Part shown: piece by piece, positions 5,902 through 27,077 of the stretch
Numbering within the stretch: the stretch's first letter is position 1
Layout of the letters: each line of letters starts with the position of its first letter
Assembly: GCF_026016325.1 (NCBI RefSeq)
Contig: NZ_CP087203.1
Location: 2,914,001 to 2,978,000 of the forward strand
Source: Pseudomonas sp. B21-056
GTDB taxonomy: Bacteria > Pseudomonadota > Gammaproteobacteria > Pseudomonadales > Pseudomonadaceae
Length of the DNA stretch: 64,000 bases
Reading direction: 5' to 3'
Notes under the pieces: model-generated
The model's database searches: none
The model's input: the letters and a program-made list of their open reading frames with translations, nothing else
What the model was told of the DNA's origin: nothing
Position numbers and translations under genes: made by a program

Positions 5902-7109
<1,208 letters not shown>

Positions 7110-10546: not shown

Positions 10547-10642
10547 CCCAGGTATCCAAGGCGTTTTCCATGTCGTGATAGTCCCCCCGGACCCGTGGCC
10601 CGGTTGATCGAGGAAGCTGCCGCGATGAAGTGATGTAACTCC

Positions 10643-10736
10643 CTGTGGGAGCGAGCTTGCTCGCGAAGGCGGTGGTTCAGGCTGCACTGATGTTGAATGT
10701 GCCGTCGCCATCGCGAGCAAGCTCGCTCCCACAGTT
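10643..10736. repeat. REPIN between convergent genes
   Basis: One complete REPIN (GTGGGAGCGAGCTTGCTCGC, about 45 bases of spacer, then the inverted copy ending CTCCCACAG) occupies the space between two convergent transcripts. It ends about 10 bases before the stop codon of the minus-strand beta-propeller gene and may help stop transcription from both sides. Confidence 0.9.
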
Positions 10737-10746
10737 TTCTGCGTTG

Positions 10747-11796
10747 TCAGAGCTGCACCCGCCGAAGCCTGCCACTGAGCGGCACGACGTGGCCGTCGGG
10801 CGTGGGCAGTCGCCTTCCGGTCAGTCCCATGCCTTCGCTCACCAGCACCGCATCCTCCACCACACACAGGTTGGACGGGGTATCCAGGCCCTGGGCGAGC
10901 ACGCTGACCTGGGCGGTCAGCAGGTTGCAGCTCAGCAATCGACCGGTGAACCGGGTGAAGCCGCCGTGCAGCGGTTCGCCGTTCCAGTCCGGCAGCAGGG
11001 GTTGTTGCAGGCGGTCGCAGAGTTCCAGCACCAGCACGTTTCCGGCCGGGCACAGCGCCAGGCCGGTGGGCAGTTGCAGTCCGCTGATCAGCACTTCGAT
11101 CTGTCCGCTGCCGGGATGGACCCGGATCACCTGGCCCGCCTTGTCGACGAAGTCGATGCCCTTGCGCGTCGGGTCGCTTTGTCGTTCGCCGGAGAACAGG
11201 CTGATCAGCACGGCATCGGTTGCCGGTTCGTACACCAACGTCACGGGCACGGCTTCCTGGCCATGGTCCAGTTCGGGCAACTGGACCAGTACCCGCTCGT
11301 CCTGGCCGGCGGCGAATTCCACCAACTGGTTGGTATCGGGCTTGACCGCCAGCCAACTACGGCGAGAAGGGTGGTAACACAGCGCATTCAGATTGCCGCG
11401 GCTGCGAAACACCGGCTCGGGTGGGGTGAATTGCAGGTCGAGCAGTTTGGAACCCTCGACGTAATCGGTCTGGCTGACCAGGTAGCGGCCATCTCCACAG
11501 GCAACGTCCGACAGCCCCATGATTTCATCACGCAGCATACGGACCTGCATGTTCATGGCGCGAAAGCCGTCTGCCAGTGTCTCGCGGGGCAAGTAGGCGC
11601 CGGGCCGCTGGGGATCGGGGCGCAGGCGACTGATGCGCCCGCTGAATGTCTGTTCCGGCAGGCCGGAGCCGGCCTCAACCAGCAGCAAGCTGCCATCGGC
11701 CCGCACGCAGATGCCGCGAGGGTTCAACAGGCCTTCGGCAATGATCGTACTTGGATGCAGGCTTTCGCCGGGCTGCGCAGGGATCTGGATAGACAT
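10747..11796 (-). CDS. ScyD/ScyE-like (SMP-30/NHL-type) beta-propeller protein
   Basis: This 349-residue protein reads as a repeated-sheet propeller. The N-terminus 'LLNPRGICVRADGSLLLVEAG' matches the opening of ScyD/ScyE-type and NHL/SMP-30 proteins, and similar blades recur ('LQLPTGLALCPAGNVLVLE', 'LDTPSNLCVVEDAVLVSEG'). No signal peptide is obvious. ScyD and ScyE are encoded in the cyanobacterial scytonemin cluster, whose export genes are the ebo genes, so this last gene of an ebo-containing run is suggestive. It starts 32 bases after the preceding gene, with GGAG at a good distance from ATG 11796. A gluconolactonase-like enzyme is an alternative reading. Confidence 0.65.
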   Translation of the reverse strand: MSIQIPAQPGESLHPSTIIAEGLLNPRGICVRADGSLLLVEAGSGLPEQTFSGRISRLRPDPQRPGAYLPRETLADGFRAMNMQVRMLRDEIMGLSDVACGDGRYLVSQTDYVEGSKLLDLQFTPPEPVFRSRGNLNALCYHPSRRSWLAVKPDTNQLVEFAAGQDERVLVQLPELDHGQEAVPVTLVYEPATDAVLISLFSGERQSDPTRKGIDFVDKAGQVIRVHPGSGQIEVLISGLQLPTGLALCPAGNVLVLELCDRLQQPLLPDWNGEPLHGGFTRFTGRLLSCNLLTAQVSVLAQGLDTPSNLCVVEDAVLVSEGMGLTGRRLPTPDGHVVPLSGRLRRVQL

Positions 11797-11828
11797 GAAG
11801 TTTCTCCGTCGTGAAGGGGTGGGCGCGA

Positions 11829-13640
11829 TCACTGCGGCGGTTGCCACGGCTCACCGGTGAGATAGGCCCGCAACAGTGCCCGCTGGCAGGGCGACATCGA
11901 GCGCACCACGGGCATGAACAGGGTGGTGCCTTTGTAGGCATCCGAGGTCCGGGCAAGGATCGGGTTCTTGGCGCCCATGATCGCGTCGGGCTGGTTCAGC
12001 GGGATGTAGCGCGACATGGCGGGGAAGGCCAGGTAGTGAAAGCGCAGGACGTTGGGGTACATCAGCGGCCAGGTGATGGTGGTGCCCTTGGGGATGCCGA
12101 AATCGGTCTGGGCGTATTTGCGGAAGCTGGTGAAGTAGGCGCTGCTGTCCAGGCCATTGGCGGTGCAGGTCAGGGCCACGAAACCCGCCTGGGCGGCACT
12201 GCCCGGCTTGAGTGTGACGGGGAAACTGACCGAAAGCTGGCCGGGGTTGATGGTCAGCGAGTCGGGGAAGTCGAGGAAGTCCCAATACTGTGGTTCCGTA
12301 TACGCGGCAGGCGGAGCCGCTTTCAGGTCGATTTCGGTGGTACTGGTCACCGGGCCGCCCAGGTATCGGACCTGCAGGGTGATCGACAGGCCTTTGGGGT
12401 AGTCCTCGAGATAGACATTGCGTTGGTCGGCATAGAGCCGATAGGTCGACTCGGTGGCTTGCAGCGTGGTGCCGGCGACCTTGTTGGGGGCCTTGATCGC
12501 CAAGGCGCTGGTCCGCACCGCCTGCTGTTGGCTGGCGGTCATGGGCAGGTCGACGATGCCGCCATACACGTAGTAGTTCAACAGCGGGCTGCTGGTCGGG
12601 TCCAGGGTCGCCAGGGCGGTGGTGCCGGCCGAGATGGTGACGGGGCCGTAGTTGGCGTTGGGGCCGATGGGGCTGGTGATGTCGTCCCTGACGGCGCGGA
12701 AGGTTTCCTTCGGAATGACATTCACCATGTCGATGCTCAGGTAACCGTTGTTGGTGCCCAGGTCGGCATAGCCGGCATTCCCCGTGGCCTGGTTGACCAG
12801 TTGTCGGCCCGGCTGACAGCTCAGCGGCTCGTCGGCGAAGGCTGGAGCGAGTGTGCCGATGACCCGACCGATGCTCGGGTTGGGCGTGTACTTGCCGGCG
12901 GCGTAGTCGGCGTCCAGTTGCTCGGTGGTCATCGTCGGGCACATCTCGAACATGACAAAACGCAGGACGATCCCCGTCGCGCCCGGCGCCTGGATGATCG
13001 AGCGCAGACCGGCGCTGTTCTGGTTCCAGCTGACGATGCTGCTCAGGGGGAAGGTCAACTGGAACGTGCCGCTGGCATGGAAGGAGCCCGGCGCGTCCAT
13101 CTTCGCCGGCAGCAGCACACGCCCGGCCACGTCGAAACTGCTGCACACGGTGTTGCCGTGGATCAACAGCTGGATGTCGCTGTTGCCGCCGATCTGCAGG
13201 CCGCCGACGAAGATCTGGGTGGTGCTCGAGGAGGTGGGGTCCAGATCCACCATCATCGGGCCGGAAACCGGGCCCTGTTGGGTCAGCGGATCCACCGAGC
13301 CAAGCAGGTAGACCGGCTGGCCCACCAGGTCGCCGGTGGTGCTGATGCCGCCCGGTATCCCCTGGGAACTGATCAAGGCGTTCTGCATGTCGACGACGTG
13401 CTGCCCGTAGTGATTCCAGCCGCCGGCGGTGTAGTAGTTGCCGGTGGGCGCATTGATCATGTCATTCAACTGGTCGTCGGTGTAGGACTGCGCACCCGGT
13501 GCCAGGGTCGAGGTGGTCAGGTCGAAGAGCGGCCAGTTGGCGTTGCCGTTGTAAGGGATGGTGGGGGAGTTGTTCGGCAGGCTGACGTCGGTGCGGATGC
13601 CGCCCCAGAAATTCAGTCGGGGTCCGTTCAGGATGCTCAT
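11829..13640 (-). CDS. VioB N-domain-like protein, shorter paralogue
   Basis: This 603-residue protein has no signal peptide. The start 'MSILNGPRLNFWGGI' resembles the start of VioB/RebD-type iminophenylpyruvate-dimer (chromopyrrolate) synthases. The C-terminal segment 'YPNVLRFHYLAFPAMSRYIPL' followed by 'FMPVVRSMSPCQRALLRAYL' parallels the VioB segment just before its ferritin-like domain. That catalytic ferritin-like domain is absent, so this is at most the N-terminal half of such an enzyme. It is a paralogue of the 793-residue protein at 16014-18395, and likewise follows a CxxCH protein (gap 3 bases). GAGGA precedes the ATG. Function is unknown; the likeness is from memory and needs a profile search. 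Confidence 0.6.
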   Translation of the reverse strand: MSILNGPRLNFWGGIRTDVSLPNNSPTIPYNGNANWPLFDLTTSTLAPGAQSYTDDQLNDMINAPTGNYYTAGGWNHYGQHVVDMQNALISSQGIPGGISTTGDLVGQPVYLLGSVDPLTQQGPVSGPMMVDLDPTSSSTTQIFVGGLQIGGNSDIQLLIHGNTVCSSFDVAGRVLLPAKMDAPGSFHASGTFQLTFPLSSIVSWNQNSAGLRSIIQAPGATGIVLRFVMFEMCPTMTTEQLDADYAAGKYTPNPSIGRVIGTLAPAFADEPLSCQPGRQLVNQATGNAGYADLGTNNGYLSIDMVNVIPKETFRAVRDDITSPIGPNANYGPVTISAGTTALATLDPTSSPLLNYYVYGGIVDLPMTASQQQAVRTSALAIKAPNKVAGTTLQATESTYRLYADQRNVYLEDYPKGLSITLQVRYLGGPVTSTTEIDLKAAPPAAYTEPQYWDFLDFPDSLTINPGQLSVSFPVTLKPGSAAQAGFVALTCTANGLDSSAYFTSFRKYAQTDFGIPKGTTITWPLMYPNVLRFHYLAFPAMSRYIPLNQPDAIMGAKNPILARTSDAYKGTTLFMPVVRSMSPCQRALLRAYLTGEPWQPPQ

Positions 13641-13643
13641 GAT

Positions 13644-14936
13644 TTATTCCTCGTCCTTGATGGATTTGATGACCGGCGAATTGGCAAATTTGAACAGGTA
13701 GGAGAAATCGGACTTGTAGAGGCTCTTGACCGGCGTCGCCATGGAATGGCAGTTCATGCAACTGCTGTTGGGCTGGATGTAGCTCTCCATGGTCACGTTG
13801 GCCGAGAGCGCCGGGGTCGGCTGGCCCAGGGGGTTACTGGGGTTGTCCGGCATCAACGGGCGCTGGGTGGTGATGAGTTGGTAGTACTTCAACACGCTTT
13901 TCTGCAGGTCCGGGTTGCTGCGGTAGTTGGCGTTGACCCCATCGGTAATCTCGGCAATCGGCGTGACCCGGTTCAACGGGTTCGGGGTCTGGAAGGTGGT
14001 GCCGGACTTGGGCACGCAGACCAGGTGTGTGCCCTGGGTCTGCCAGTCACAGGGTGACTGGTTGAGGCTGGCGGCGGGGGCGCTGGCATTGAAGTACGAA
14101 TAGGCCGTGCCCGTTGCCGGTTGATCGACCCACTGGCCGTGCACCAGCGCCTTGGGCGGTACGTTGTCGATCTGCTCGAAGGTCGACCAGATCCACTGCG
14201 GATAGCCGTTCACCTTGGTGATGATGTGCAGGCCCACCAGGCCCAGGTAGGCCTCGGTCACGCCGGTGCGCTGGCCCTGGTCATCGAAGGTGGCGACGCG
14301 GGCGAACTGGGTCAGGTAGTGGCTGGCGTTGTCATTGGAAGTGAGGATGCGCCAGCTCGACTTGATCTCGATGACGCCGTTGGGGAAGTTGATGTTGTTG
14401 GCCTTGGACACGACATCGGCGTTGTAGTACTGGTTGTTGACGATGTAGTCGTAGGAGGACTCGTTGGCCGAGATGTCGTAGTAGGTCGGGTTGCCGGCCT
14501 GATCGATCAACCAGCCGCCGACGGCCTGGTCGACGGCGTTGACCTGGGTGCTGTTCTTCAATGCGGCAATGTTGATGATGCCCAGGCTCTTGGCTTTCTG
14601 CGGGGTATTCCAGGGGCCCGGATTCGCCCCCTGGGGCAGGAAGATTTCCTCCACGGTCTTGTAGGTCTGCCAGACGGTGTAGCCGGGGTCCCCCGGCTGC
14701 TTGCTGCAGTCGGGATCACCGCGTTGCCCATTCTGAGCGGGCCAGTTCATGGCGATGAACATCTGCCAGCTGTACTGATCGAACAGATCCTGGCTGGCGT
14801 TGGCGGCGGGCGCGGAAGTGGGGGGCTGGCAATTGAGGGTGCTGGCCTGTGCCGGTTTGTTCTGGTTCTGGGTTTGATCCAGGGCCAGGGCCGGCAGGCT
14901 GGCAAGCCCCAGTAACATCATGGTGAATGTTTTCAT
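13644..14936 (-). CDS. Exported single-heme cytochrome-like protein (paralogue 2)
   Basis: This 430-residue exported protein has a signal peptide (about 19 residues, ending 'LPALA'). One CxxCH heme site lies near the C-terminus in 'NSSCMNCHSMATPV'. The middle shares a series of blocks with the 379-residue protein at 18408-19547: 'GANPG', 'YDYIVNNQYYN', 'FPNGVIEIKSSWRIL', 'LVGLHIITKVNGYPQWIWSTFEQI'. They are clearly paralogues. The domain before the heme site is not one I can name. AAGGAT precedes the ATG. It sits directly before a VioB-N-like gene, repeating the gene order further upstream. Confidence 0.7.
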   Translation of the reverse strand: MKTFTMMLLGLASLPALALDQTQNQNKPAQASTLNCQPPTSAPAANASQDLFDQYSWQMFIAMNWPAQNGQRGDPDCSKQPGDPGYTVWQTYKTVEEIFLPQGANPGPWNTPQKAKSLGIINIAALKNSTQVNAVDQAVGGWLIDQAGNPTYYDISANESSYDYIVNNQYYNADVVSKANNINFPNGVIEIKSSWRILTSNDNASHYLTQFARVATFDDQGQRTGVTEAYLGLVGLHIITKVNGYPQWIWSTFEQIDNVPPKALVHGQWVDQPATGTAYSYFNASAPAASLNQSPCDWQTQGTHLVCVPKSGTTFQTPNPLNRVTPIAEITDGVNANYRSNPDLQKSVLKYYQLITTQRPLMPDNPSNPLGQPTPALSANVTMESYIQPNSSCMNCHSMATPVKSLYKSDFSYLFKFANSPVIKSIKDEE

Positions 14937-15027
14937 GGCAATCCTTCGTCTTGAGTTTATCCACTGTTGCTGAGCCTGCCCCCGTCTGTAGGAGCAATCA
15001 CCCTCACTCCAGATCCTTAATGAGTGT

Positions 15028-15951
15028 TCAGGGCTTGCGCTGCATCAGCTTGTTCCACTGCGCCTTCTGGCCGTTGCTCTGTGAAGCCGGCGGCTCGAAC
15101 AACTGGCAGGGCGGCGGGTTCGACGGGCACATGGCGGCCACTTGTGCCCAGGTCTGGGCCGGGTCGGGCTTGGCAATGCGGAAGTTGGTGTAGTTCTGGC
15201 TGACGATGGGCGCGTTGGCGACGCTGGTGTCACCGGAGAAATAGAACGACTGCGGCGGCCGGTAGGGCGGTTGCCCCGACATCTTCTTGTAGAAGGCGTA
15301 ACCGAACAGGATCGGCCCCTGCGGTGAATCGAGATCCAGGGCATAGGCCTGTACGCTGCCATTGAGGTTCTGACTGCGCGCGGCGCTGTAGGGCAGGTGC
15401 TGGATGAAATCCTGCCGCGGTGGATGATTCATCGGCGAGAACATGCAGCAGGCCGGCATGTCCTTGGGGCGGTCCTGCGGATAGGTCAGGAAGTACGCCT
15501 TGTTGCCCAGGGACACGAAGGAGCAGGTGTAGTTGTTGTTCTTGATCGGGAAGATCGGCAGGCAGTATTTCTCGTAGTGCTCCATCATCGCGCCGAAGCC
15601 GTCGCCGTCTGGCGGGATGTAGGTGGTGTCGTAGTAGCTGGTGCCCCGGGACACGGTGTAGTCCGCCGGGACGAGGGTGGTGGGTGGGTTGCTGTAGGGC
15701 GGCGGGTTCTTCTCGTAGTTGTGCATCACCCGGTACATGGTCCAGTCGCTGATCCAGAACGCCGGGAAGAACGGGTCGGAAGGGTCGCCCGGTGCGCGTT
15801 TGGCGATGCAGTTGCCGTTCTGTTCGTTACAGCCTTCGGTGTTGTGCACCCCCATGGTGAAGTAGACGGCGCCGCTGTCCTGTTGGGCAAACACCCAAGG
15901 ACTGAGCAGCAGGGTCAACAGTAGCAGCCGTTTCAAGATACTGGCTTTCAT
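15028..15951 (-). CDS. Exported Cys-rich protein of unknown function
   Basis: This 307-residue protein starts at ATG 15951, preceded by AGGAG. The signal peptide is 'MKASILKRLLLLTLLLS' followed by 'PWVFAQ'. The mature part has about a dozen Cys (for example 'EGCNEQNGNC', 'YTCSF', 'MPACCMF', 'MCPSNPPPCQLF') and many Pro and Tyr. This suggests a disulfide-bonded periplasmic or secreted protein. No CxxCH heme motif is present. I do not recognise the family. It lies between the two paralogous gene pairs, 91 and 62 bases from its neighbours, so it likely belongs to the same transcript. Confidence 0.7.
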   Translation of the reverse strand: MKASILKRLLLLTLLLSPWVFAQQDSGAVYFTMGVHNTEGCNEQNGNCIAKRAPGDPSDPFFPAFWISDWTMYRVMHNYEKNPPPYSNPPTTLVPADYTVSRGTSYYDTTYIPPDGDGFGAMMEHYEKYCLPIFPIKNNNYTCSFVSLGNKAYFLTYPQDRPKDMPACCMFSPMNHPPRQDFIQHLPYSAARSQNLNGSVQAYALDLDSPQGPILFGYAFYKKMSGQPPYRPPQSFYFSGDTSVANAPIVSQNYTNFRIAKPDPAQTWAQVAAMCPSNPPPCQLFEPPASQSNGQKAQWNKLMQRKP

Positions 15952-16013
15952 ATCGACACTCCTGTGAAGTGCCGGGTGGCGGGTGTGCCACCCGGTGTTC
16001 CTGGGTGAAATCG

Positions 16014-18395
16014 TCAAAGGCTGTTGTAGTCACTCATGCTGAGCGTCGTGGGCGGAAAGTTGAGCTTCACCAGGCGCTTGGCCCACAGCTCCAGTACGGC
16101 GCGACGGCTTTGCGACAGGTCGCGGGTGATGGGCATCGCCAGGGTGCTTTCGTCCTGGTTCTGCTTGCTGATCAATATGATCAACTGGTCGACGGCGCCC
16201 TCTACACGCGTGCGGGAATCGAGCGGCATGTACTTGTTCATGATGGGGTACAGGTAATAGAAGGTTTGCAGGACCTTTGGAAAGATGAACGAGTTCCAGA
16301 TCTTTTCCGGGGCGTCCGTGGAAGTGCACATGCCATTCCAGGTGCTGATGAAGTCCTCTTGCAGCTGCATGTCCACCGGCAGGACCCGTATCGGCGCGAG
16401 GAAGTCGACGAAGGTCTGGGTGATCGGGAAGCTGAACGGAATGACCGGTTTCTTGTCGTCCTCCTGCACGAAGAAGCGCAAGGTGGGGAAGCCCGGCGCC
16501 ACTGCCCGGTAGCCTATCTGGGCGATGCCTTGGGCGTTGGTGGTGATGATGGCGTAGGAGTAACTGACGCTGCTGGCCTTCTGGTCCTGCAGTGTACCGG
16601 TGCCAGTGCGACCCTTCTCGAGAACCAGGCAGGGGCGCAGGTCGACGGCGACCGGTGTGCCGGAATGTCGGAGGAAGTCTTGATAAAAGACCGGGTTGCC
16701 CACGGGTTGGGTCACGTCCTGCAGGTCGGTCAACTGGCGACCGCTGCCGCTGCTGCGATAGAGCGCGACCGCAGGCGCGTCGGTGAACTGCGGCAGATTG
16801 GCCGTGTTCTTGGTACGGTCCGGCGGGTTGTCGTAGAACAGGGTGAAGTCGGCTGCGTTGCTGAATGCCAGGTAATAGTTGCTGCTGGTGACCATGAAGG
16901 GATTGCCATACTCCGCCACATACAACGTGGTGTTGGCGGCTGGCTGACCATTTTTCTGCACCATGATGCTCATTATCTTGCGCTCACCGACGTCGATGAA
17001 GCTGCCGCTCTCGATCACTTCGGCGGTCCACAGTTGCTGCTGGGCGGCCATTATCGAAGGGGTTGGGGCGGGGTTGCGCTGTTGCAGGAGCAGGGGACCG
17101 GACTGCAGTATTCCCTTGGTCTCGCGGCTGAGGATGAGGTCGAGGATGCCTGAACGTTTTTCGAAGGCCGATTGCTGGTATTGCTCGAAACCGAAGCCGG
17201 CCGCTGCGGTGAATTGCCCTTGCTTGCGGACGCCCAACAGGTAGCCGCCGGAGTTGAATTTCTCCGGAACGAGGATGTCGGCGTCGGGGTTCACCGGATA
17301 GCATGGAAACGTGTTGCTCAGGTCCAGTGACAGGACGTTGTCGGTGAACTGCGCCGAGATCACCCCCAAGCTCGCACTTTGATCACTCTGCCCCGGTTGA
17401 GTCATCGTCACTGGCTGGTTGGGCACCAGGCGCAGCCCGGCGGGGGCGGTGGGGTATTCGTTGGCGAACCACAGGCCCAGCACCGCCGAGGTGCGGCTGT
17501 AGGCGGGGTTGAAGAAGATCTGGTTGACGTTGTCCAAGCCCTTCTTGTACAGCTCGCGCACATGCGCCATGACTTCCGGGTTGTTGGAACGGGTGTTGAG
17601 GCGCTGGGGGTAATCGTTGAATATCCCGTTCTTGTCGTAGCAGGTCAGGTAGGCGGAAAACCGGAACATCAGGCCCTGCGCCCCTTGCTGCTTCATCTGC
17701 TGCTGGAGGTTGCTCAACAGGGATGAGTTGCCGATCAGCCATTCCAGATTCTCTTTGGGGAAGCAGGTCTGCCAGGTGGTGCTGACATTCACCAGCCCAC
17801 CCAGGGCGCCCCAACTGAAGTTCAGGAAACGGTCCATCATCCGGTACTTGCGGTTGAGGGTCAGGCCGCAGGACCCGTCCCCCAGCACCAGTTTGTCGAA
17901 ATACAGTGCTGTGAACGTGTTCTGCCATGGGCTGATGTCCACGAAGCGCGCCGGAGTCGGGGCAGAGCTGCCCAGGGGGCTGCCGAGCAGTTGGTATGGC
18001 TTGCCGACCAACTGATCCTGGTCGATGTAGGTATTGGCCTGCATTTCACCGCCGATGACGGTCGAGGTGGTTTTCCCGTAGTTCACCAGGCCGCAACCGT
18101 TGTCGCCGAACAGGTCCCATTCGGCGGGCATGTAGGGATCGTGTTTTGGATTGACATTGCCGGGTACCTGCTGAACATAGGTCGGCATGTTAGCCATGTA
18201 CTGAGTGGAGAGGGTCCATGGCATCAGTGTGTCGGGGGCATTTTTTTGGTCGATGCCGAAGTGCTGCACGAACGGCCAGTTGATGTCCATCTTCACCGCG
18301 TCATACAGCGGGTACACATCGTTGTTGTTGGCCGTCGGCGGGTTCCAGAACATCTCGCCGTTGAGGTAGATGCGGGGGAAATTCAATACGCTCAT
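16014..18395 (-). CDS. VioB N-domain-like protein, longer paralogue
   Basis: This 793-residue protein has no signal peptide. The opening 'MSVLNFPRIYLNGEMFWNPP' then 'TANNND' mirrors the VioB start (M-S-I-L-D-F-P-R-I-H ... PTANRD). The central 'SAVLGLWFANE' then 'YPTAPAGLRLVP' matches the VioB 'GVVGLW ... YPAGRLLRP' stretch. The C-terminus 'FPKVLQTFYYLYPIMNKYMPL' plus 'MPITRDLSQSRRAVLELW' matches the segment that leads into VioB's ferritin-like domain. That domain is missing, so the oxidative-coupling iron site is absent. AAGGAG precedes the ATG. It follows a CxxCH gene by 12 bases. Substrate and activity are unknown. Confidence 0.62.
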   Translation of the reverse strand: MSVLNFPRIYLNGEMFWNPPTANNNDVYPLYDAVKMDINWPFVQHFGIDQKNAPDTLMPWTLSTQYMANMPTYVQQVPGNVNPKHDPYMPAEWDLFGDNGCGLVNYGKTTSTVIGGEMQANTYIDQDQLVGKPYQLLGSPLGSSAPTPARFVDISPWQNTFTALYFDKLVLGDGSCGLTLNRKYRMMDRFLNFSWGALGGLVNVSTTWQTCFPKENLEWLIGNSSLLSNLQQQMKQQGAQGLMFRFSAYLTCYDKNGIFNDYPQRLNTRSNNPEVMAHVRELYKKGLDNVNQIFFNPAYSRTSAVLGLWFANEYPTAPAGLRLVPNQPVTMTQPGQSDQSASLGVISAQFTDNVLSLDLSNTFPCYPVNPDADILVPEKFNSGGYLLGVRKQGQFTAAAGFGFEQYQQSAFEKRSGILDLILSRETKGILQSGPLLLQQRNPAPTPSIMAAQQQLWTAEVIESGSFIDVGERKIMSIMVQKNGQPAANTTLYVAEYGNPFMVTSSNYYLAFSNAADFTLFYDNPPDRTKNTANLPQFTDAPAVALYRSSGSGRQLTDLQDVTQPVGNPVFYQDFLRHSGTPVAVDLRPCLVLEKGRTGTGTLQDQKASSVSYSYAIITTNAQGIAQIGYRAVAPGFPTLRFFVQEDDKKPVIPFSFPITQTFVDFLAPIRVLPVDMQLQEDFISTWNGMCTSTDAPEKIWNSFIFPKVLQTFYYLYPIMNKYMPLDSRTRVEGAVDQLIILISKQNQDESTLAMPITRDLSQSRRAVLELWAKRLVKLNFPPTTLSMSDYNSL

Positions 18396-18407
18396 GTCGT
18401 GCTCTCC

Positions 18408-19547: not shown

Positions 19548-20971
19548 GGAAGCTCCTTGGCATTGGCCGTGTCGGTGTGAGAGCGCCCCAGGAAGTGTTC
19601 CAGGAGCAGTTGTTTCACCGCCGTGGCCGCAAGCTGCTGGGGCAATGGCAGATCACAATTGGTGATGAGCAGCGGGCCGGCCGGCTCACTGCCGGGCAGA
19701 CGTCCATGGCTGCCGCGAACCAGTCCGGTGTCCAGCGGAATCAGGTCCATGTAGTAGCGAAAACCGAGCTTCTTCTGCAGCAGGCGGCGCGCCACTTTCA
19801 GTTTTGGGAAACGAATGGCCGGGTCGATGAACAGCTCCAGCGGGTCGTAGCCCGGCTTGCGGTGGATGTCCACGGTGCGGGCAAAGTCGGGGGCCTTGCG
19901 GTCGTCGAACCAGTAGTAGTAATCGAACCAGTGCCCCGGCTCGGCCACGGCCACCAGCTCACCGCTGCGCGGATGGTCCAGGTGCCAGGCCCGTTGTTCG
20001 GCTTTATCCAACACCTGCTCGATGCCGGGTTGACGCAATAACAGCGCCTTGACCCGAGGAATGTCCTGCGCCTGCTTCACGTAGACATGGGCGATCTGAT
20101 GATCGGCGACGGCAAACGCGGCGCTGGCGCCGGGGTCGAGCAATTCCCAGCTCAGGGATTGCCGTACCTGCAACAAGCCTTCCGAGCGCAACAAGCGGTT
20201 GATGGACACCGATTGCCGGACGGCCTCGATGCCGTACTCGGACAACAGCATCACCGCCGCGCCTCGTGCCTGGGCAACGTCGAGCAGGCGACCCACCTCA
20301 CTGTCGATGGCCCGCACTTCGTCGGCAATCGACGGATGATCAGGGCCCAGGCGTTGCAGGCTGTAGTCCAGGTGAGGCAGGTAGACCAACTGCAGATCGG
20401 GGCGGTTGATGTCGAATTCGGCGATGGCGCAGTCGACGATCCAGCGGCTCGACGCGATGCCCGCCGCCGGCCCCCAGAAGGCCGGGAACGGAAACTCACC
20501 GATCTGCTGTTCGATACGTTCGTGCAACGTGGACGGTGCCGAATACAGGCCGAACATCTTGCGACCATCGGCGGGATAGTGCGGGCGCGGGGTGATGGCG
20601 GCGTCCACGTCCGCGTACATGTTGTACCACCAGAACAACTGGCTGCAGCGAAACCCTGGAAGCTGGCGCTTGAGTGTGTGCCAGACCTTTTCGCCCTGGA
20701 TCAGGGCATTGGGTTGCAGCCAGAAGCGTACTTCGGCCTGATCGCGAAAATACCAGCCGTTGCCGACGATGCCGTGCGCTGCCGGCGTCAGCCCGGTGAG
20801 GATCGAAGCCTGCACCGACGAGGTGACGGCCGGAAACACCGGTTGCAGGCTGGCCATCCTGGCTGTTTTCAGCAAGGCATTGATGTGCGGCGTCGCCGCG
20901 CCCAACAACGCCGGGGTCAGCCCCACCACGTTGATCAACAGCAGCGGTTGGCGCGGGCGCTCAGAGGACAT
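19517..20971 (-). CDS. eboF: EboF-like alkaline-phosphatase-superfamily protein
   Basis: This 484-residue protein resembles nucleotide pyrophosphatases/phosphodiesterases. The nucleophile region is 'FPAVTSSVQASILTGLTPAAHG' with Thr as the expected nucleophile, and 'LPHLDYSLQRLGPDHPS' holds the D...H...GP ligand set. Two usual metal ligands look altered: the first-strand 'DG' is 'VVG', and the 'DHG' motif is 'SEYG'. The family in ebo clusters is annotated the same way. ATG 20971 is chosen because it overlaps the eboE stop by 11 bases and is where the fold begins. In scytonemin-making cyanobacteria the ebo genes are needed to bring a precursor to the periplasm. Confidence 0.8.
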   Translation of the reverse strand: MSSERPRQPLLLINVVGLTPALLGAATPHINALLKTARMASLQPVFPAVTSSVQASILTGLTPAAHGIVGNGWYFRDQAEVRFWLQPNALIQGEKVWHTLKRQLPGFRCSQLFWWYNMYADVDAAITPRPHYPADGRKMFGLYSAPSTLHERIEQQIGEFPFPAFWGPAAGIASSRWIVDCAIAEFDINRPDLQLVYLPHLDYSLQRLGPDHPSIADEVRAIDSEVGRLLDVAQARGAAVMLLSEYGIEAVRQSVSINRLLRSEGLLQVRQSLSWELLDPGASAAFAVADHQIAHVYVKQAQDIPRVKALLLRQPGIEQVLDKAEQRAWHLDHPRSGELVAVAEPGHWFDYYYWFDDRKAPDFARTVDIHRKPGYDPLELFIDPAIRFPKLKVARRLLQKKLGFRYYMDLIPLDTGLVRGSHGRLPGSEPAGPLLITNCDLPLPQQLAATAVKQLLLEHFLGRSHTDTANAKELPCGEPLPSQF

Positions 20972-22190
20972 TGGCGTACGCCTCCCGCGCCTGGGGTTGC
21001 AGCAGTTGCCGTCGGTGCAGTTGCTTCTCGACCCAGCGCAATTCCCTGGCGATGCCCTGGAGCTGGGCGTGCATGGTAGTGGGGCGCAGCAACTCGGGCA
21101 GGACACCCCAGCTGTAGGTTTCCACCTCCAGTACCGGACGGAAATCCTCGTGGTCGGCAAGGAAGTCGAAGGTCTGTTCCAAAGCATTCTGGCTGCCGCT
21201 GAGCTCGGGCAGCAGCAAGTGTTCGCTGAACAGCGGAATGTGGAAATGAATCCGCAGTTCGGGGTGTTGCCCCGGGGTTTTTGTGCAATCGTCGAGGGCG
21301 GCCGGAAGGTCGGCCCAGGCTGCCAGGCGATCCTGCCCATCGCGGGCCTTCACCTGATGCAGGTAGGTGGCTTCGGCAAAATCTCCCAGGGTCCTGAGCA
21401 CCTGTTCGCGGCGCTCGTCCTCCTGGGGCAAGCGACAGATCAAGGCGTTGGACAGTTGGATCTTGCCCACGGGCACCCGGGCCTGTCGCAGCTTGTCCAG
21501 CGACTGATAACAATCTTCGAAGACCACGGCCTGGTGGCACACGTCAAAACACAGCGCCAGATGATCATGGTGCGGATCGCTGGCTTGCAGGCGCTGGAAG
21601 AACGCGATGGCCTGGTCGGTGTGTTCCAGCACGCAGTCCGGTTCCATCTCCAGGCAGAACACGATCTTCTTGCCGGTTTCCTGATGCAGCCTGTGCAACG
21701 AGGCCGTGAGTTGGCGCAGCTGATGCTCGGCGTGCCGATGCAGGATTGCATTCCAGTGGGCGGCATAGCCCAGTGGCACGGTGGAAATCACCCCCTGATC
21801 ACAATCCGGCGGCAGGGCCTGGGCTAGGATCCGGGCCAGGTTCAGGCTGTACACCAGCCGCTTCGGATCGGCCCAACTGGGCAGGTAGACCTCGGCCTTC
21901 ACCGCGCCCTGATGAAACTGGCCGTAGGGAAAACCGTTGAGTGAGGTCAGGCGCATCCCACTGCTTTGCAGCAGGCTGAGAAAGTCCGTACGTGCCGCCG
22001 TTTGTTGCAGTTCGGCGGCGGCGAGGGCGCTGATCCACAGGCCGCTGTCCTGCTCGTCGAGCCTGCGTAGCGTGCGCACGCCCCGAAAATGCTGTTCGAT
22101 GGAAGACCGCAGCCCGGCCAGGTCACGGGTCGGGTGCACGTTGCTGCAATAGCCGACCTGCCCGGCTTGCCAACCCGTGCCGCCGCTCAT
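20961..22190 (-). CDS. eboE: EboE-like metabolite traffic protein
   Basis: This 409-residue protein begins 'MSGGTGWQAGQVGYCSNVHP', and 'GYCSNVHP' is a hallmark of EboE. The rest reads as a xylose-isomerase-like TIM barrel: 'CLEMEPDC' (acidic), 'HDHLALCFDVCHQAVVFED' and 'HFHIPLF' supply the acidic and His residues typical of metal sites in that fold. The ATG at 22190 overlaps the eboB stop by ATGA; an upstream ATG is in the same frame but lies inside eboB. It is one of six ebo genes in an unbroken run. The actual reaction, if any, is unknown. Confidence 0.85.
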   Translation of the reverse strand: MSGGTGWQAGQVGYCSNVHPTRDLAGLRSSIEQHFRGVRTLRRLDEQDSGLWISALAAAELQQTAARTDFLSLLQSSGMRLTSLNGFPYGQFHQGAVKAEVYLPSWADPKRLVYSLNLARILAQALPPDCDQGVISTVPLGYAAHWNAILHRHAEHQLRQLTASLHRLHQETGKKIVFCLEMEPDCVLEHTDQAIAFFQRLQASDPHHDHLALCFDVCHQAVVFEDCYQSLDKLRQARVPVGKIQLSNALICRLPQEDERREQVLRTLGDFAEATYLHQVKARDGQDRLAAWADLPAALDDCTKTPGQHPELRIHFHIPLFSEHLLLPELSGSQNALEQTFDFLADHEDFRPVLEVETYSWGVLPELLRPTTMHAQLQGIARELRWVEKQLHRRQLLQPQAREAYANVL

Positions 22191-23071
22191 TTGATCACCG
22201 GTTCCTGGCCGCGCAGGGCGGAATTTTCCTGCCACTGCCGACGCTGGTCGATGGGCAGCGGGGTGCCGACCAGGGTCTTGTCCAGTTGGCCGCTCTGGGC
22301 AAAGAAGTCCACCGGGTTGTGGAACAGCACTTGCTCGACCTGAGCCTCACTGAAGCCGGCCGCCAACATGGCCTGACCGGTTTTCGGCACCTTGAGCGGG
22401 TCGCTGATGCCCCAGTCGGCGGCGCTGTTGACCACCATTTTCTCGGTGCCGTATTCCTGCAACAGGGCGACCATGCGCTGTTCCGACATCTTGGTATTGG
22501 GGTAAATGGAGTGGCCGCGCCAGCAATCGGTTTCCAGCACCAGGGGCAGGGTCAATTCGTTGAGGTGGTCGATGATCACCAGGTGCTCGGCAATCCCGAC
22601 TTCACGAATGACCGCCAGGGTTCGCTTGGTACCGCCGATCTTGTCGCGGTGTGGGGTGTGTACCAGCACCGGCAGATTGAACTGCCGGGCCAGTTCCAGT
22701 TGCGCGGCGAGGAAACGATCCTCTTCCGGGGTGATGTCGTCATAACCGATTTCGCCGACCGCGACCACGCCGTCTTTCACCAGGTAGCGCGGCAGGATCT
22801 CCAGCACCTCATTGGCGATCGACAGGTCATTGGCCTCCTTGGGGTTGAGGCCGATGGTGCAGAAGTGATGGATACCGAACATGCTGGCGCGAAAGCGCTC
22901 CCAGCCCAGCAGGGTGTCGAAGTAGTCGATGAAACTGCCGACACTGGTCCTGGCCTGGCCCTGCCAGAAGGCCGGTTCGATGACCCCGGTGATGCCGGCG
23001 GCCGCCATGTTCTGGTAGTCATCGGTGGTACGGCTGACCATATGAATGTGCGGATCGAAGTACTTGGGCAT
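22187..23071 (-). CDS. eboB: EboB-like TatD-family metal-dependent hydrolase
   Basis: This 294-residue protein is a TIM-barrel amidohydrolase of the TatD type. Metal ligands are visible in order: 'FDPHIHM' (HxH), 'VGEIGYDD' (Glu), 'VLVHTPH' (His), 'VIIDHLNE' (His) and 'NSAADWG' (Asp). All are present, so it should be an active hydrolase. The phosphate-ester or amide substrate is not known for ebo members. It follows eboA by 38 bases and overlaps eboE by 4, so the cluster order here is eboD-C-A-B-E-F. Confidence 0.87.
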   Translation of the reverse strand: MPKYFDPHIHMVSRTTDDYQNMAAAGITGVIEPAFWQGQARTSVGSFIDYFDTLLGWERFRASMFGIHHFCTIGLNPKEANDLSIANEVLEILPRYLVKDGVVAVGEIGYDDITPEEDRFLAAQLELARQFNLPVLVHTPHRDKIGGTKRTLAVIREVGIAEHLVIIDHLNELTLPLVLETDCWRGHSIYPNTKMSEQRMVALLQEYGTEKMVVNSAADWGISDPLKVPKTGQAMLAAGFSEAQVEQVLFHNPVDFFAQSGQLDKTLVGTPLPIDQRRQWQENSALRGQEPVIK

Positions 23072-23109
23072 GGTGAGTCCTCATCAGGAATGCAGGGAAC
23101 CGTTGAGCA

Positions 23110-23883
23110 TCAGTTCAGTGAAATGTGGGCCAGATAGTCGTGCCATTCCGGCGGCAACCGTTGCTGCTGGGCCAGGCCGACCAGGCGCTGGCGTTGTGCC
23201 GGGCTGAGCAGGTCGAAATCGATGGCTCGCGGCAGCCCGGCGGACACCGTTCGTTCGGCGGCGAGTTGTTCGGCCAGCAGGTCGAGGGCCAACTGGTTGA
23301 GGCTGACACTGTGCCGTTGGGTCAGGCCGAGCAGTCGGCGCACATCGAGTCCCATGCCCAAGGCCTTCAGCACCAGTTGATGGAAGGCCCGCTCGTCGTA
23401 GTGGCGCGACGGATAGAGGGTGTCCAGGGCGAGGGCGGCAAACACCTGGCTGTTGCTGGTGCGCCCGGCTTGCAGCGCAAGCTCCACGCACGCCCCCTGG
23501 CTGTCGAGCCAGTCGAGGGCTTTCAAGAGCGCGATCTTTTCCTGATCGTCGCCCCACAGGAACAACTGGCGGAGCAAGGGCAACTGTTCGGCGGCGGGCT
23601 GTTGCGCCAGCACCTGGGCCAGCAACAAGGCCCGTGTGAGCTGCACATTGCTCCAGTGGGCCTTGCCGGGCAGGGCATGCTCCTTGAGATGACGCTTGCA
23701 CTGGCTGCTCAATAGCGCCGTGGTCGTCGCGTCCGGGTGTTGGGCAAGCTGCTCCTGCGCCTGGGTCCACCATTGCTGCTCGGCAGCATCGAGCTGTTGC
23801 GTGAGCAACTGGCGATGTTCGGCGAGGCAGTCGTGACGCATTTCAAAGGCCGCCGATGACGGCGCGGTAACGTCCGTGTTCAT
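23110..23883 (-). CDS. eboA: EboA domain protein
   Basis: This 257-residue, mostly helical, Leu/Gln/Ala-rich cytoplasmic protein is recognised by position in the ebo run and by blocks such as 'LLRQLFLWGDDQEKIALLKAL' (shortened motif: LFLWGDDQEK) and 'NLALDTLYPSRHYDERAFHQLVLKALG' (shortened: YPSRHYDERAF). These are shared by EboA domain proteins as I remember them. No catalytic motif is known. It overlaps eboC by ATGA. In P. fluorescens NZI7 the same gene set, called EDB, is required to repel grazing Caenorhabditis elegans. Confidence 0.8.
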   Translation of the reverse strand: MNTDVTAPSSAAFEMRHDCLAEHRQLLTQQLDAAEQQWWTQAQEQLAQHPDATTTALLSSQCKRHLKEHALPGKAHWSNVQLTRALLLAQVLAQQPAAEQLPLLRQLFLWGDDQEKIALLKALDWLDSQGACVELALQAGRTSNSQVFAALALDTLYPSRHYDERAFHQLVLKALGMGLDVRRLLGLTQRHSVSLNQLALDLLAEQLAAERTVSAGLPRAIDFDLLSPAQRQRLVGLAQQQRLPPEWHDYLAHISLN

Positions 23884-24770
23884 GTCGGTTTGATCCAGCG
23901 TTGGAAGTGTGGGAGCAGGAAAAACACCAGGACACAGGCCAGGCTGCCCAGCGGCTGGTCGGCCACTGCCAGCACCAGGGCATCGAACAGTGGCAGCGCC
24001 GCCAGGCCGGCACCGATAAACCCCCGGACCTGCCGTTGCTGTGGTCTAGCCAGATGACGCCAGTAACTGCGTCCCAGCCAGCCCAGCCAGAGCAGCATGA
24101 CCGGCCAGAACCAGAGGTTATTCGAGTAGATCGCCAGCACCAGTGGGCTCAGCATCAACAGCAGGGGCAGCCGGCTGAGCAACTGGTTACGGTGTTCCTG
24201 GCGGGCCAGGTAGGTCAGGCCGCTGATGTAGACACCGAGCAGGATTGCGCAAAGCCAGATCGGCCCCGGCGGGAGCGCCAGGCTGGCCGCCGCCGTGAGG
24301 TAGAGCGTCGAGCGGCAGGCGCCCATCAGCCAGACGCTGTGGGCGTACTTCTTGTGCAGCAGGTTGTAACCCAGGATGCAGCCCACCAGCAGGGTGGCGC
24401 TGCCCAGCAGCCAGTGCGGCTGATCGATCAACCGGCTCAGGCCCAGCAGTGCCGCGGCGGCCAGCATCAGCAACAACGCCGTGGCCAACCGCACCTGCTG
24501 GCGGCTGACCAGGCCCAGGGTGATGGGGCGAGGATTCTGGTGCTGCTGGTCCCAATCGGCGTCCAGCAGGTCATTCAACAACATGCCGGCCAGGTACAGC
24601 AGTGACAGCGCGGCCAGCAGCAGGAGCCACACCAGGGACGACGGTGGCGCCAGGGCCCCGGCGCTGCTGGCGAGCAGGGCGGCGGCCAGGGTGTTGGTCC
24701 ACACCGTGGGCAGGTTGGACACCCGGCCCAGGGTCATCCAGGTCTTGAGATTCAGCGGTGCCTGGCTCAT
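23880..24770 (-). CDS. eboC: EboC-like UbiA-family prenyltransferase
   Basis: This 296-residue membrane protein has about eight hydrophobic segments. The first prenyl-diphosphate motif 'NDLLDADWDQQ' (NDxxDxxxD) lies at about residues 65-75. The second Asp-rich motif of UbiA enzymes is not evident: the matching loop reads 'LTYLARQEHRN'. It may therefore bind a prenyl-like substrate in an altered way. It overlaps eboD and eboA by 4 bases each. Family membership is clear; the transferred group and acceptor are unknown. Confidence 0.87.
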   Translation of the reverse strand: MSQAPLNLKTWMTLGRVSNLPTVWTNTLAAALLASSAGALAPPSSLVWLLLLAALSLLYLAGMLLNDLLDADWDQQHQNPRPITLGLVSRQQVRLATALLLMLAAAALLGLSRLIDQPHWLLGSATLLVGCILGYNLLHKKYAHSVWLMGACRSTLYLTAAASLALPPGPIWLCAILLGVYISGLTYLARQEHRNQLLSRLPLLLMLSPLVLAIYSNNLWFWPVMLLWLGWLGRSYWRHLARPQQRQVRGFIGAGLAALPLFDALVLAVADQPLGSLACVLVFFLLPHFQRWIKPT

Positions 24771-26644
24771 TGCGCGCAGCCTTCGCTCAGGGTGAGCGCC
24801 GGATCACCGAGGGCGGACAACCGTTGCAGCGCCTGCTCCATTCGGCCGGCATCGATCTCATGCAGGTCCAGCGACTCGCCGATCCGACTGAGCATGGGGA
24901 TGGAGAGCGCCCCGCCCAGGTGCTGGCGGAACTCTTCCAGCCCGAGCAACACCCGCGAACGACCCTGTTCATCTTTCAGGTCCAGTTCGGGTGGGTTGAG
25001 GCAGAAACCGAGCTTGAGCAGCAGGCGCAGGATGCGTTCGCTGTCGGCATCGCTCAACAGTCCCAGGGCATTGGCGTAGAGGCTGTCCAGGGCGATGCCC
25101 ACCGCCACCGCCTCACCATGGCGGAGCCGGTGATGGCTGAGATTTTCCAGCTTGTGCGCCGCCCAGTGTCCATAGTCCAGCGGGCGGCCGTTACCGCGCT
25201 CGAATGGGTCGCCGGCCCCGGTGATGTGCGCCAGGTGCAACTCGGCGCAGCGACGGATGGCATAGCGGCTGGCGGCGTGGTCGAAGTGGGCGAGGGCGTC
25301 GGCCTGTTGCTCCATCCATTGGAAGAAAGCCTGGTCCTTGATCAGCGCGACTTTCACCGCTTCGGCCAGCCCGGCGATCTGATCGCGCCGGCTCAGGCTG
25401 GTCAGCAATTGGAAGTCGTTGATCACCGCCGTGGCGGGGTAGAACGCGCCGAGCAGGTTCTTCTGGCCGAAGGCATTGATGCCGTTCTTCACGCCGATGC
25501 CCGCGTCGTTCTGGGCCAGCACCGTGCTCGGGATCCGGATCAGGCGCATGCCACGATGGAAGGTGGCACAGGCATAGCCCACCGCATCCAGCACAGCACC
25601 ACCGCCCAGGACCAACACATAGCAATGCCGGTCCAGGCCATGCTGCAGCATGTCGCTGTAGAGCTGCTGCAGTACCTGTGAATCCTTGCTCAGTTCGCCG
25701 GCCGGTACGGCAATCGGTGGCGCTTGCAGATGCAGGTCCGCAGGGTGGGCGGCGAAGTAGGCGTCGATTTGCTCCCGCAACGATGGGACGCTGTGCAGCA
25801 GTTGTTCATCGACAAACACCAGTACCGTCACTGGGCCCCGTTGTCGGGCGGTGAGCTGGCGATGGAGGCAGGGATTGAGCGGGTCGAACAGGTGATCAGT
25901 GAATATCACCGGGTAGTCGTAACTGACCTCGAAGCGCCCGCGCAGGGGTTGTTCGCTGTCGCGCTTGCGCAGGCTTTTGAACAGGCTGTACCCGGCAATG
26001 AACAATCCGGGCAAGACCATGCTGGCGAGCAGGGTCACCAGCAACGCATTCTGCTCGACGAGGAAGCTGCCGATGGCGCTGTAGGCCAGCGCCAGGCCGG
26101 CATTGGCCAGGACGATCACCGGCACGAAGGCACGCAGCGGGTAGCGTTGCATCCCGGCGGCCACCACCGAGGTTTCCGCCAGCACCGGCACGCCCCGCAG
26201 GCAGATCAACGACAGCGTGCCCAACCGATACCCCAGTTGCCCCGGCTGGCGCTGATGCAGGCCCAAGCGGCCGGACAGCAGTCGGAAATAACCGGCTCCC
26301 AGGGCATAACCCAACCCGGCCCCCAGGCACAGCCCGAGGAAAATCACCAGGTAACCACCGAGGCTGCCAAGCATCGCCACGGCCATCAGCGCGACCATGC
26401 TCGAAGGCACCGGCAACACCACGTCCAACGCCAGCAGAGCGATCAGCAACAGCGCCAGGTTGAGTTTCTGGGCAGGCGTGGAGGGCAGGTACAGATTGAG
26501 GTGGGTCAGGAAGTCCTGGATCTGCTGTTCGAACAGCAGGAAGCTGGCGATCACCAGACCTGAGAAGCAGATCAACGACAGCCAGAAAGGCGTGGCTGGA
26601 CCTTTTTGCGCGAGCGCACGAAACCACCGGCTACGCTTCATCAA
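24767..26644 (-). CDS. eboD: EboD-like 3-dehydroquinate synthase fused to an N-terminal VTT/DedA-like membrane domain
   Basis: This 625-residue protein has two parts. Residues about 1-230 hold several membrane helices with a VTT/TVP38-like pattern ('VVLPVPSSMVALMAVAMLGS', 'LICLRGVPVLAETSVVAAGM'). Residues about 235-625 form a dehydroquinate-synthase fold with 'LGGGAVLDAVGYACATFHRG', 'GLAEAVKVALIKD' (Zn Glu), 'GHWAAHKLE' (Zn His) and 'LRHGEAVAVGIALDS' (Zn His). All metal ligands are kept, so a sugar-phosphate cyclase reaction is possible. The fusion anchors it to the membrane. Standard EboD proteins, as I know them, lack the membrane part. GAGGGA precedes the ATG. It is the first gene of the minus-strand operon. 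Confidence 0.88.
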   Translation of the reverse strand: MMKRSRWFRALAQKGPATPFWLSLICFSGLVIASFLLFEQQIQDFLTHLNLYLPSTPAQKLNLALLLIALLALDVVLPVPSSMVALMAVAMLGSLGGYLVIFLGLCLGAGLGYALGAGYFRLLSGRLGLHQRQPGQLGYRLGTLSLICLRGVPVLAETSVVAAGMQRYPLRAFVPVIVLANAGLALAYSAIGSFLVEQNALLVTLLASMVLPGLFIAGYSLFKSLRKRDSEQPLRGRFEVSYDYPVIFTDHLFDPLNPCLHRQLTARQRGPVTVLVFVDEQLLHSVPSLREQIDAYFAAHPADLHLQAPPIAVPAGELSKDSQVLQQLYSDMLQHGLDRHCYVLVLGGGAVLDAVGYACATFHRGMRLIRIPSTVLAQNDAGIGVKNGINAFGQKNLLGAFYPATAVINDFQLLTSLSRRDQIAGLAEAVKVALIKDQAFFQWMEQQADALAHFDHAASRYAIRRCAELHLAHITGAGDPFERGNGRPLDYGHWAAHKLENLSHHRLRHGEAVAVGIALDSLYANALGLLSDADSERILRLLLKLGFCLNPPELDLKDEQGRSRVLLGLEEFRQHLGGALSIPMLSRIGESLDLHEIDAGRMEQALQRLSALGDPALTLSEGCAQ

Positions 26645-26666
26645 GCATCCCTCTTTTATATTTTTG

Positions 26667-26713
26667 ACTGATTCCGTGTCAGTAATCTAAAAGCAGCGTC
26701 AGGTGGTTTTCAG
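26667..26713 (-). promoter_or_regulatory. Candidate promoter and operator of the ebo operon
   Basis: Reading the minus strand, CTGAAA (26708-26713), a 17-base spacer and TTAGAT (26685-26690) fit a sigma-70 promoter. Just downstream lies ACTGATTCCGTGTCAGT (26667-26683), an inverted repeat with 5-base arms that would overlap the transcription start, as a repressor site would. The start codon is at 26644. All of this is pattern-based. Confidence 0.4.
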
Positions 26714-26896
26714 GTCGATAGATGCTCTCGCTGGAGGGGCTGGCCCCGGTGCGTTGGGTTGTGCAGGTGAAGACAGTTTTGAATCTAGACGGGCCTTGTT
26801 TTTTTGCAAGGCGATTTGATGGCAAAGTGGTTTTTCGCCGACATCCTCAGGAAAGTGTCGGGCGTGGAGACCGCCTGGGGCCTTGGGAATACGGGC

Positions 26897-27062
26897 TGTG
26901 GGAGCGAGGCTGGCTCGCGATAGCGTCCAGCCTGCTTGCTTCGATATTGAATGTGCTACCGCTATCGCGAGCAGGCTCGCTCCCACATTATCCGGGTTGC
27001 ACTCGGTACCTGCGCCCGATCACCGATCCCCTGTGGGAGCGAGCCTGCTCGCGATAGCGGAG
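26897..27062. repeat. REPIN and extra REP upstream of the ebo operon
   Basis: In the 432-base gap between eboD and the YodC-like gene there is one REPIN (CTGTGGGAGCGAGGCTGGCT at about 26898, inverted partner ending about 26987) and a single REP at about 27031-27061. The rest of the gap shows only the ebo promoter candidate. Confidence 0.85.
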
Positions 27063-27077
27063 GGTCAGCTGAGAGAG

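Follow-up and report, generated by a model that had tools for sequence, protein, structure and literature searches.

Modular anatomy of an ebo-containing operon of Pseudomonas with VioB-like proteins, CxxCH proteins and an EboD-DedA fusion

Introduction

The ebo genes of Pseudomonas sp. B21-056 are followed on the same strand by six further genes, and this raises the question of whether the two sets constitute a single system and, if so, what kind of compound it handles. The stretch analysed, hereafter the window, comprises 64,000 nucleotides of a 6.45 Mb single-contig genome (G000:C1:2914001-2978000). Within it, twelve open reading frames (ORFs) on the minus strand (10747-26641), all of them open, form one tight unit with the order, from 5' to 3', eboD-C-A-B-E-F, followed by cytA, vioA, cys, cytB, vioB and prop. 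The labels of the six accessory genes are our own and rest on family scans; "vioA" denotes a VioB-like protein and not the VioA oxidase, and VioN is used for the family resembling the N-terminal half of VioB. The original prediction, drawn from the sequence alone, had described twelve minus-strand genes with tiny gaps or overlaps, six of them ebo genes, and both the layout and the six names, the latter by family scans, stand.

The locus most plausibly corresponds to the EDB ("edible") cluster already reported from Pseudomonas. In the part of the source available, the EDB of P. fluorescens NZI7 is described as repelling Caenorhabditis elegans and as containing ebo genes together with ORFs bearing signal peptides; on that description the two loci share the genus, the full ebo set and the signal-peptide ORFs, and a full ebo set with exported non-ebo ORFs in a Pseudomonas genome is what the window contains. 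Relative to the published description, its accessory genes are here resolved into two modules. We put at roughly one in two the probability that EDB is a single, transferable operon for making an aromatic, cell-associated compound, probably a tryptophan-derived indole, and for transporting it over the inner membrane by the stepwise mechanism set out below. What would be added here, as suggested by comparison of sequences and predicted structures, is the modular anatomy, the fusion of EboD with a DedA domain, the probable P460-like partner and a kinship with halves of VioB that crosses phylum borders.

The NZI7 locus was reportedly described by Burlinson in 2013, and Zhou in 2022 is said to have linked EDB to tryptophan-derived indoles. 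In the portion of a review that covers this work, four compounds are said to arise from tryptophan when EDB is expressed in Escherichia coli, two of them being (1H-indol-3-yl)oxoacetamide and indole-3-aldehyde. On this account, the idea of an aromatic product not yet named, put forward in the original prediction, is partly overtaken by the 2022 paper.

Results and discussion

One operon in Pseudomonas with a constant and an optional module

EboE was detected in 25 of 199 sampled Pseudomonas genomes, and VioB-like proteins in those same 25. All of the EDB genomes carry vioA, whereas 19 carry vioB, and cys is found in exactly those 19. The trio cytA-vioA-prop is constant; cys-cytB-vioB is an optional cassette present in 19 of the 25; the proposal to check whether the six accessory genes always co-occur is thus answered with a yes for the first trio and a no for the second. 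In the 24 further Pseudomonas loci (the 25 genomes less the window's own), 17 with twelve genes and seven with the nine that remain without cys-cytB-vioB, whichever genes are present keep the same order and strand throughout. Further, the overlap between eboF and cytA measures 22 or 31 nucleotides in 24 of 24 loci, and the gap between cytB and vioB is exactly 3 nucleotides in 18 of 18 (L025 counted). Since order, strand, overlap and gap are all conserved across relatives, the arrangement exceeds what chance would give. The flanks, in contrast to this constancy, are diverse: in named GTDB genomes the upstream sides of 45 loci fall into 24 groups and the downstream sides of 44 loci into 23, groups being counted as separate when tblastx at 1e-15 matched nothing between them across some 1.3 kb on the upstream side or at most 3 kb on the downstream side. 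This diversity implies that the shared part stops sharply at eboD and at prop, as expected of a transferable unit. Only the best candidates per genome were scored for VioB-like proteins in the 199 Pseudomonas (six), for VioN in a sample of 299 Pseudomonadota (three) and for the CxxCH family (nine), and the respective counts here and below are therefore lower bounds.

On the vioA tree, where 51 of 55 rows have an assigned state, the nine- or twelve-gene state switches five times; four of 54 rows (L036, L040, L047 and L089) have no state, and two loci, L029 and the broken L086, were excluded. The rows closest to the window are P. mediterranea and then P. corrugata. Taken together, the operon is best read, on comparative sequence evidence, as a metabolite-export set joined to two swappable oxidation modules. 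A recent local duplication as the origin of the two cyt-vio pairs is not favoured, the A and B types each falling on one side of a branch that includes other classes or phyla (support 63 for vioA, 100 for vioB, 100 for cytA and 85 for cytB); the deep order of this tree is unsure, given its warning of long branches.

Several loci depart from the common form. The eboC of L009 is degenerate. Pseudomonas sp. FEN (G169; loci L095 and L079) has the nine-gene form, in which eboC is degenerate and eboD shortened; about 200 kb from this cluster, at a contig start, lies a stretch of eboC-cys-cytB-vioB, which suggests either a rearrangement or a second copy of module B. In Pseudomonas sp. TH31 (L086), most of the EDB genes are split over at least two reading-frame pieces, by sequencing error or decay.

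As to the ebo genes themselves, eboA to eboF are all present and clustered in the window. All lie on the minus strand: eboD (24767-26641) encodes an N-terminal VTT/DedA-type membrane domain (Pfam VTT, 34.2 bits) fused to a sugar phosphate cyclase domain resembling dehydroquinate (DHQ) synthase (DHQ_synthase, 118 bits), eboC (23880-24770) a UbiA-type prenyltransferase (UbiA, 48 bits), eboA (23110-23883) a protein matching NF035938 at 137.5 bits, eboB (22187-23071) a TatD-like hydrolase (TatD_DNase, 45 bits), eboE (20961-22190) a TIM barrel matching NF035939 at 408 bits against a cut-off of 250, and eboF (19517-20971) a phosphodiesterase or pyrophosphatase-like protein (Phosphodiest, 215 bits). 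Alignments led to corrected starts for eboD (ATG at 26641, not TTG at 26644), eboE (22190), eboF (20971), cys (15951) and prop (11796). With these, eboF and cytA overlap by 31 nucleotides, and gaps of 12, 62, 3 and 32 nucleotides separate cytA-vioA, vioA-cys, cytB-vioB and vioB-prop, respectively; the widest gap among the accessory junctions is that of cys-cytB, at 91 nucleotides.

The CxxCH proteins as probable P460-like cytochromes

The products of cytA (18408-19547, minus strand) and cytB (13644-14936, minus strand) each carry a single CxxCH motif, and signal-like N-termini characterise both families, bearing out the prediction of two exported CxxCH proteins. At an E-value of 0.05 no Pfam family was found for either of them, nor for cys or the two VioN proteins. 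The predicted structure of cytB recovers cytochrome P460 in the first 17 rows of its list of structural matches; the probable fold of cytA is taken from the same cytB model. The Pfam family matched by most members is PF16694, with four of the 39 listed at E of 5 or less and the best at 16.9 bits, all under the 27-bit cut-off, and the window's own cytB has no PF16694 match. A search of solved structures by sequence, using the CxxCH alignment, likewise recovered no P460. Besides the haem motif, K192, H237, W250, E254, N258, N380 and E384 are invariant in 105 of 105 sequences. Of these, Lys192 aligns, in the second-best local alignment, with the VK-x2-W motif of P460, the lysine of which we take to be the one bonded to the haem. 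The CxxCH proteins thus look like a divergent group of cytochrome P460, as judged from a predicted model, the sub-threshold Pfam signal and the invariant Lys192: they share with cytochrome P460 and cytochrome c'-beta the C-terminal CxxCH and an FP-x6-K-x2-W motif and, on the model, may share the fold, and they differ in being two to three times longer and in the Pfam score.

An alternative is that these proteins are ordinary periplasmic electron carriers fed by a partner oxidoreductase rather than catalysts. It draws on relatives without ebo that adjoin genes for GMC-type oxidoreductases and molybdopterin dehydrogenases. Against it stand the numerous polar and aromatic positions, listed above, that never vary, and the twelve genes match no dehydrogenase family apart from the DHQ-synthase part of EboD. 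We consider the carrier role somewhat unlikely and retain oxidation of the compound by the P460-like proteins as the preferred reading.

A genuine cytochrome P460 gene, the sole PF16694 match in the genome, lies at 10040-10546 on the plus strand of the window, convergent with prop; a P460 gene also flanks four of 64 named loci (L058, L059, L063 and L064). The genome additionally encodes two relatives of the CxxCH family outside the cluster (L140:4016-5395, 460 amino acids; L141:1789-4281, 831 amino acids).

Distribution beyond Pseudomonas and the case for a single system

A scan of genome contigs with the VioN alignment gave 96 matches, 80 of which were kept as 64 loci, and genes were assigned in them with our own profiles. 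All twelve genes occur in Rheinheimera and Azomonas. A Kangiellaceae metagenome-assembled genome has eboDCABEF-cys-cytB-vioB-prop, with module A missing; in Telmatospirillum cytA-vioA adjoin eboA-B-F-D-E-C, and in Nitrospirillum ferritin-like-cytB-vioB stand alongside ebo. Plasmids contribute further combinations: cytA-vioA, eboB, eboD, a second VioN, a ferritin-like gene and cys in the cyanobacterium Gloeothece verrucosa; VioN, a ferritin-like gene, eboD, cys, eboE and eboC in Mycetohabitans; and VioN-ferritin-cys in Azospirillum B510, with ebo elsewhere on the same plasmid. EboE is rare, being found in three of the 299 Pseudomonadota and four of 117 cyanobacteria (counts that include the window's own genome and the centre that carries VioN), and is nonetheless present in seven of seven tested non-Pseudomonas VioN genomes; in five of these the flank fetched around VioN is free of ebo genes. 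Among the Pseudomonadota, VioN was recorded in G000, G083 and G350 and EboE in G000, G083 and G382; among the cyanobacteria VioN is confined to the centre itself, the other three EboE genomes lacking it. In plasmids, EboE occurs in 47 records and vioB-like proteins, by tblastn, in three, the vioB search having missed the Azospirillum VioN that a profile recovered. These counts indicate that ebo mostly lives without VioN, whereas VioN mostly lives with ebo.

Several observations weigh against a single system. The wider CxxCH family occurs in at least 58 of the 199 Pseudomonas genomes, as against 25 with EDB, and 33 of these have no ebo; Gilvimarinus has cytB-vioB without ebo within 10 kb; G350 has cys-VioN without EboE, and G382 the reverse, ebo without VioN. 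The first and third of these are occurrences of accessory-type genes without ebo that the original prediction had named as fatal to the idea of one system, and to that extent the idea has suffered. They would suit an arrangement of two systems on one transcript, with ebo exporting one compound and the cyt/VioN genes forming an independent oxidative module expressed downstream of eboF, and the neighbours of the CxxCH relatives without ebo, which include tyrosinase besides the two oxidoreductase types mentioned above, would fit it as well. Yet the 199 Pseudomonas genomes contain neither ebo without vioA nor vioA without ebo, eboF and cytA overlap by 22-31 nucleotides in 24 of 24 loci, and the presence of EboE in every tested non-Pseudomonas VioN genome is difficult to square with its rarity were the two independent. 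Further, close EDB-type cytA and cytB occur, among the 199, in the 25 EDB genomes and nowhere else (above 360 bits, all other matches reaching at most 256). Two systems therefore appear unlikely to us, and the single operon is retained, supported by its co-occurrence, overlaps and sharp boundaries and qualified by relatives found without ebo.

In a gammaproteobacterium without EboE (L139:7717-11007), cys adjoins VioN, and the cys-VioN pair may be older than its tie to ebo.

VioN proteins and the halves of VioB

Two products of the operon, those of vioA in module A (16014-18395, minus strand) and vioB in module B (11829-13640, minus strand), match the iminophenylpyruvate dimer synthase model TIGR04492 at 22.8 bits (E 1.7e-5) and 25 bits (E 3.7e-6), respectively, far under its equivalog cut-off of 1250 bits. 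The predicted likeness to the N-half of VioB, weak in the window, becomes firm in a relative, the Gloeothece VioN matching VioB residues 482-583 at 58.9 bits (E 2e-16); with the Nitrospirillum VioN matching residues 1-417 at 34 bits, the family jointly spans VioB residues 1-583. The VioN proteins of Mycetohabitans and Azospirillum had no VioB match at 0.01. An AlphaFold2 model of vioB (predicted local distance difference test score, pLDDT, 87) is beta-rich and has a helical tail besides an immunoglobulin-like domain at 400-510, and no enzyme fold was recognised in it, Foldseek and a second look returning mainly the immunoglobulin-like region.

Unlike VioB, the EDB proteins lack the ferritin-like C-half, and PF12902, which represents it, has no match in the window's genome. 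It was found in two of the 199 Pseudomonas genomes, of which just one (G079) carries EDB, leaving 24 of the 25 EDB genomes without it. The neighbour of VioN in EDB is a haem c (CxxCH) protein in place of the ferritin-like gene that adjoins it in Mycetohabitans, Azospirillum and Gloeothece. In Mycetohabitans the ferritin-like protein belongs to PF12902 (206 bits) and weakly matches VioB 658-736 (E 0.0018), whereas that of Azospirillum has no VioB match; judging by Mycetohabitans, some bacteria appear to encode the two VioB halves in adjacent genes. It is quite improbable, in spite of this adjacency and the joint coverage of VioB, that VioN and its partner in EDB act as a split VioB coupling two indole-pyruvate imines, given the near-complete absence of PF12902, the unmatched Azospirillum protein and the fact that both repellent products named in the review, as far as its text was available, are monoindoles.

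The cys protein, the propeller and their compartments

Signal-like N-termini were judged by a simple hydrophobicity proxy, with proteins under 250 amino acids and five plasmid-only cyt loci excluded. They are present in 53 of 56 cytA, 44 of 45 cytB and 35 of 42 cys proteins, and in none of the 55 vioA, 46 vioB and 52 prop proteins. The predicted periplasmic setting accordingly holds for the CxxCH and Cys-rich proteins but not for the VioN proteins and the propeller.

The Cys-rich protein encoded by cys (15028-15951, minus strand) is unusually constrained: alignment of the window's version with homologues from Azospirillum, Mycetohabitans and Gloeothece gives 49-55% identity, with 55% to the cyanobacterial one, and 84 positions are invariant across 11 sequences. 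The last gene, prop (10747-11796, minus strand), encodes a beta-propeller-like protein related to the ScyE family and strictosidine synthase. The anticipated likeness to ScyD/E is visible in its ScyE_fam (NF033206) score of 54 bits, which lies under the cut-off of 80. According to the portion of the source at hand, Nostoc ScyE carries a Sec signal and resides in the periplasm; as prop has no signal-like N-terminus, it differs from ScyE in place, if not in fold.

EboD and the export step

The N-terminal VTT domain (PF09335) of the window's EboD scores only marginally above the cut-off of 33.9 bits; it is recovered at 41.7-55.4 bits in six of six relatives with the same gene arrangement, while four EboDs from other arrangements, one of them (L100) from the same order, have none. 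Within Pseudomonas, the EboDs of L079, L085 and L090 are without it. A profile of the EboD N-terminus found nothing above 17 bits outside EboD reading frames in the fetched loci, where a separate VTT gene was sought. DedA proteins are known as flippases of lipid carriers. Taken with the domain match, this makes it plausible that the DedA/VTT domain of EboD serves as the translocase for a prenylated carrier.

The available parts of the literature offer a setting for such a role. In Nostoc punctiforme, ebo genes have been shown experimentally to export an indolic compound (PMC6282210), and the scytonemin pathway there, like the window, combines ebo with a ScyE-family propeller; the window differs in the VTT domain of its EboD, in the propeller without a signal-like N-terminus and in the VioN and CxxCH partners. 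For ebo export, Klicki et al. suggested a lipid carrier bearing a prenyl group; in the text at hand the words DedA and flippase are absent from their paper, as is DedA from Yurchenko et al. The cyclitol product of EboD is likewise a published proposal. UbiA-297 of marine bacteria, a relative of EboC and similarly a UbiA-type prenyltransferase within ebo, farnesylates quinolines (PMC9235831).

The leader of the operon

The leader (26642-26690, minus strand) contains two conserved GGA sites. Of 49 eboD leaders 39 were aligned, the near-copies L059, L063, L073, L078, L083 and L087, the shortened L040, the misplaced-start L075 and L077 and the Rheinheimera L082 being excluded. The 39 share a site of the ACGGA, AAGGA or ATGGA type, nearly all with a further AGGGA-type site at the ribosome-binding site, and the sequence farther upstream varies; the Rheinheimera leader lacks the upstream GGA. 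That upstream site lies in a possible small hairpin, a TGAC/GTCA stem in which 85.8% of cells are paired against 81.1% in shuffles, with changes on both sides in four cells against 0.8. An alternative ACTGA/TCAGT stem showed no excess pairing over shuffles, and the minimum free energy of the leader is not below that of shuffles (z of -0.11 for the window). On account of these free-energy and stem-pair results the claim is limited to the conserved GGA sites, the structure being unproven. GGA sites of this kind match the Rsm/Csr consensus. The leader would thus fit Rsm/Csr (Gac) control, and the NZI7 EDB is reported, in the part of the source available, to be under GacS.

No known RNA family scored above its gathering threshold in the window. 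A sigma-70-like scan of 10000-27400 gave no site, against 2.7 in shuffles, including none before eboD; because the expected eboD promoter was also missed, the scan is powerless on the question of a promoter between eboF and cytA.

Neighbouring genes

Upstream of the cluster, three ORFs of 2443, 4528 and at least 3273 amino acids (31533-63997, minus strand) are peptide synthetase-like by eye and are accompanied by an outer-membrane efflux gene and a LuxR-type gene. On the other side, two plus-strand ORFs at 5911-7109 resemble, by eye, an IS3-type transposase pair, and two adjacent alpha/beta hydrolase-like genes occupy 7535-10017 (plus strand), the first with an epoxide hydrolase N-terminal domain and the second recognised by eye.

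A proposed mechanism and its implications

In the mechanism proposed here for EDB, the cytosolic VioB-N-half proteins and the propeller would first bind and shape an indolic intermediate. The Ebo proteins would then bring the compound to the periplasm, as has been demonstrated for export in Nostoc: EboC may add a prenyl chain onto an aromatic acceptor or carrier, and EboD may make the cyclitol part, with its fused DedA/VTT domain possibly flipping the prenylated species. Finally, the exported P460-like haem c proteins would oxidise the exported compound, replacing the ferritin-like half of VioB. As an optional addition, the cys-cytB-vioB cassette could supply a second oxidation module and thereby vary the product, and expression would be set by the leader under Gac/Rsm control.

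A bolder form, tentative and in our estimate fairly unlikely, would make EDB a split membrane-spanning indole oxidation system, in which VioB N-halves without the ferritin half face a lysine-modified P460-type partner across the inner membrane and the DedA-EboD prenyl-carrier flippase forms the bridge between them. If true, the translocase so far missing from ebo export would thereby be identified. The adjacency of VioN and ferritin-like genes suggests a greater modularity of VioB-type proteins than one would gather from the fused enzyme of violacein synthesis. The related strains with nine and twelve genes amount to an experiment already run by nature, from which the contribution of the second VioN/haem module to the product could be read, and the EboD-DedA fusion offers a direct candidate for the translocating part of ebo export, a matter that spans many phyla.

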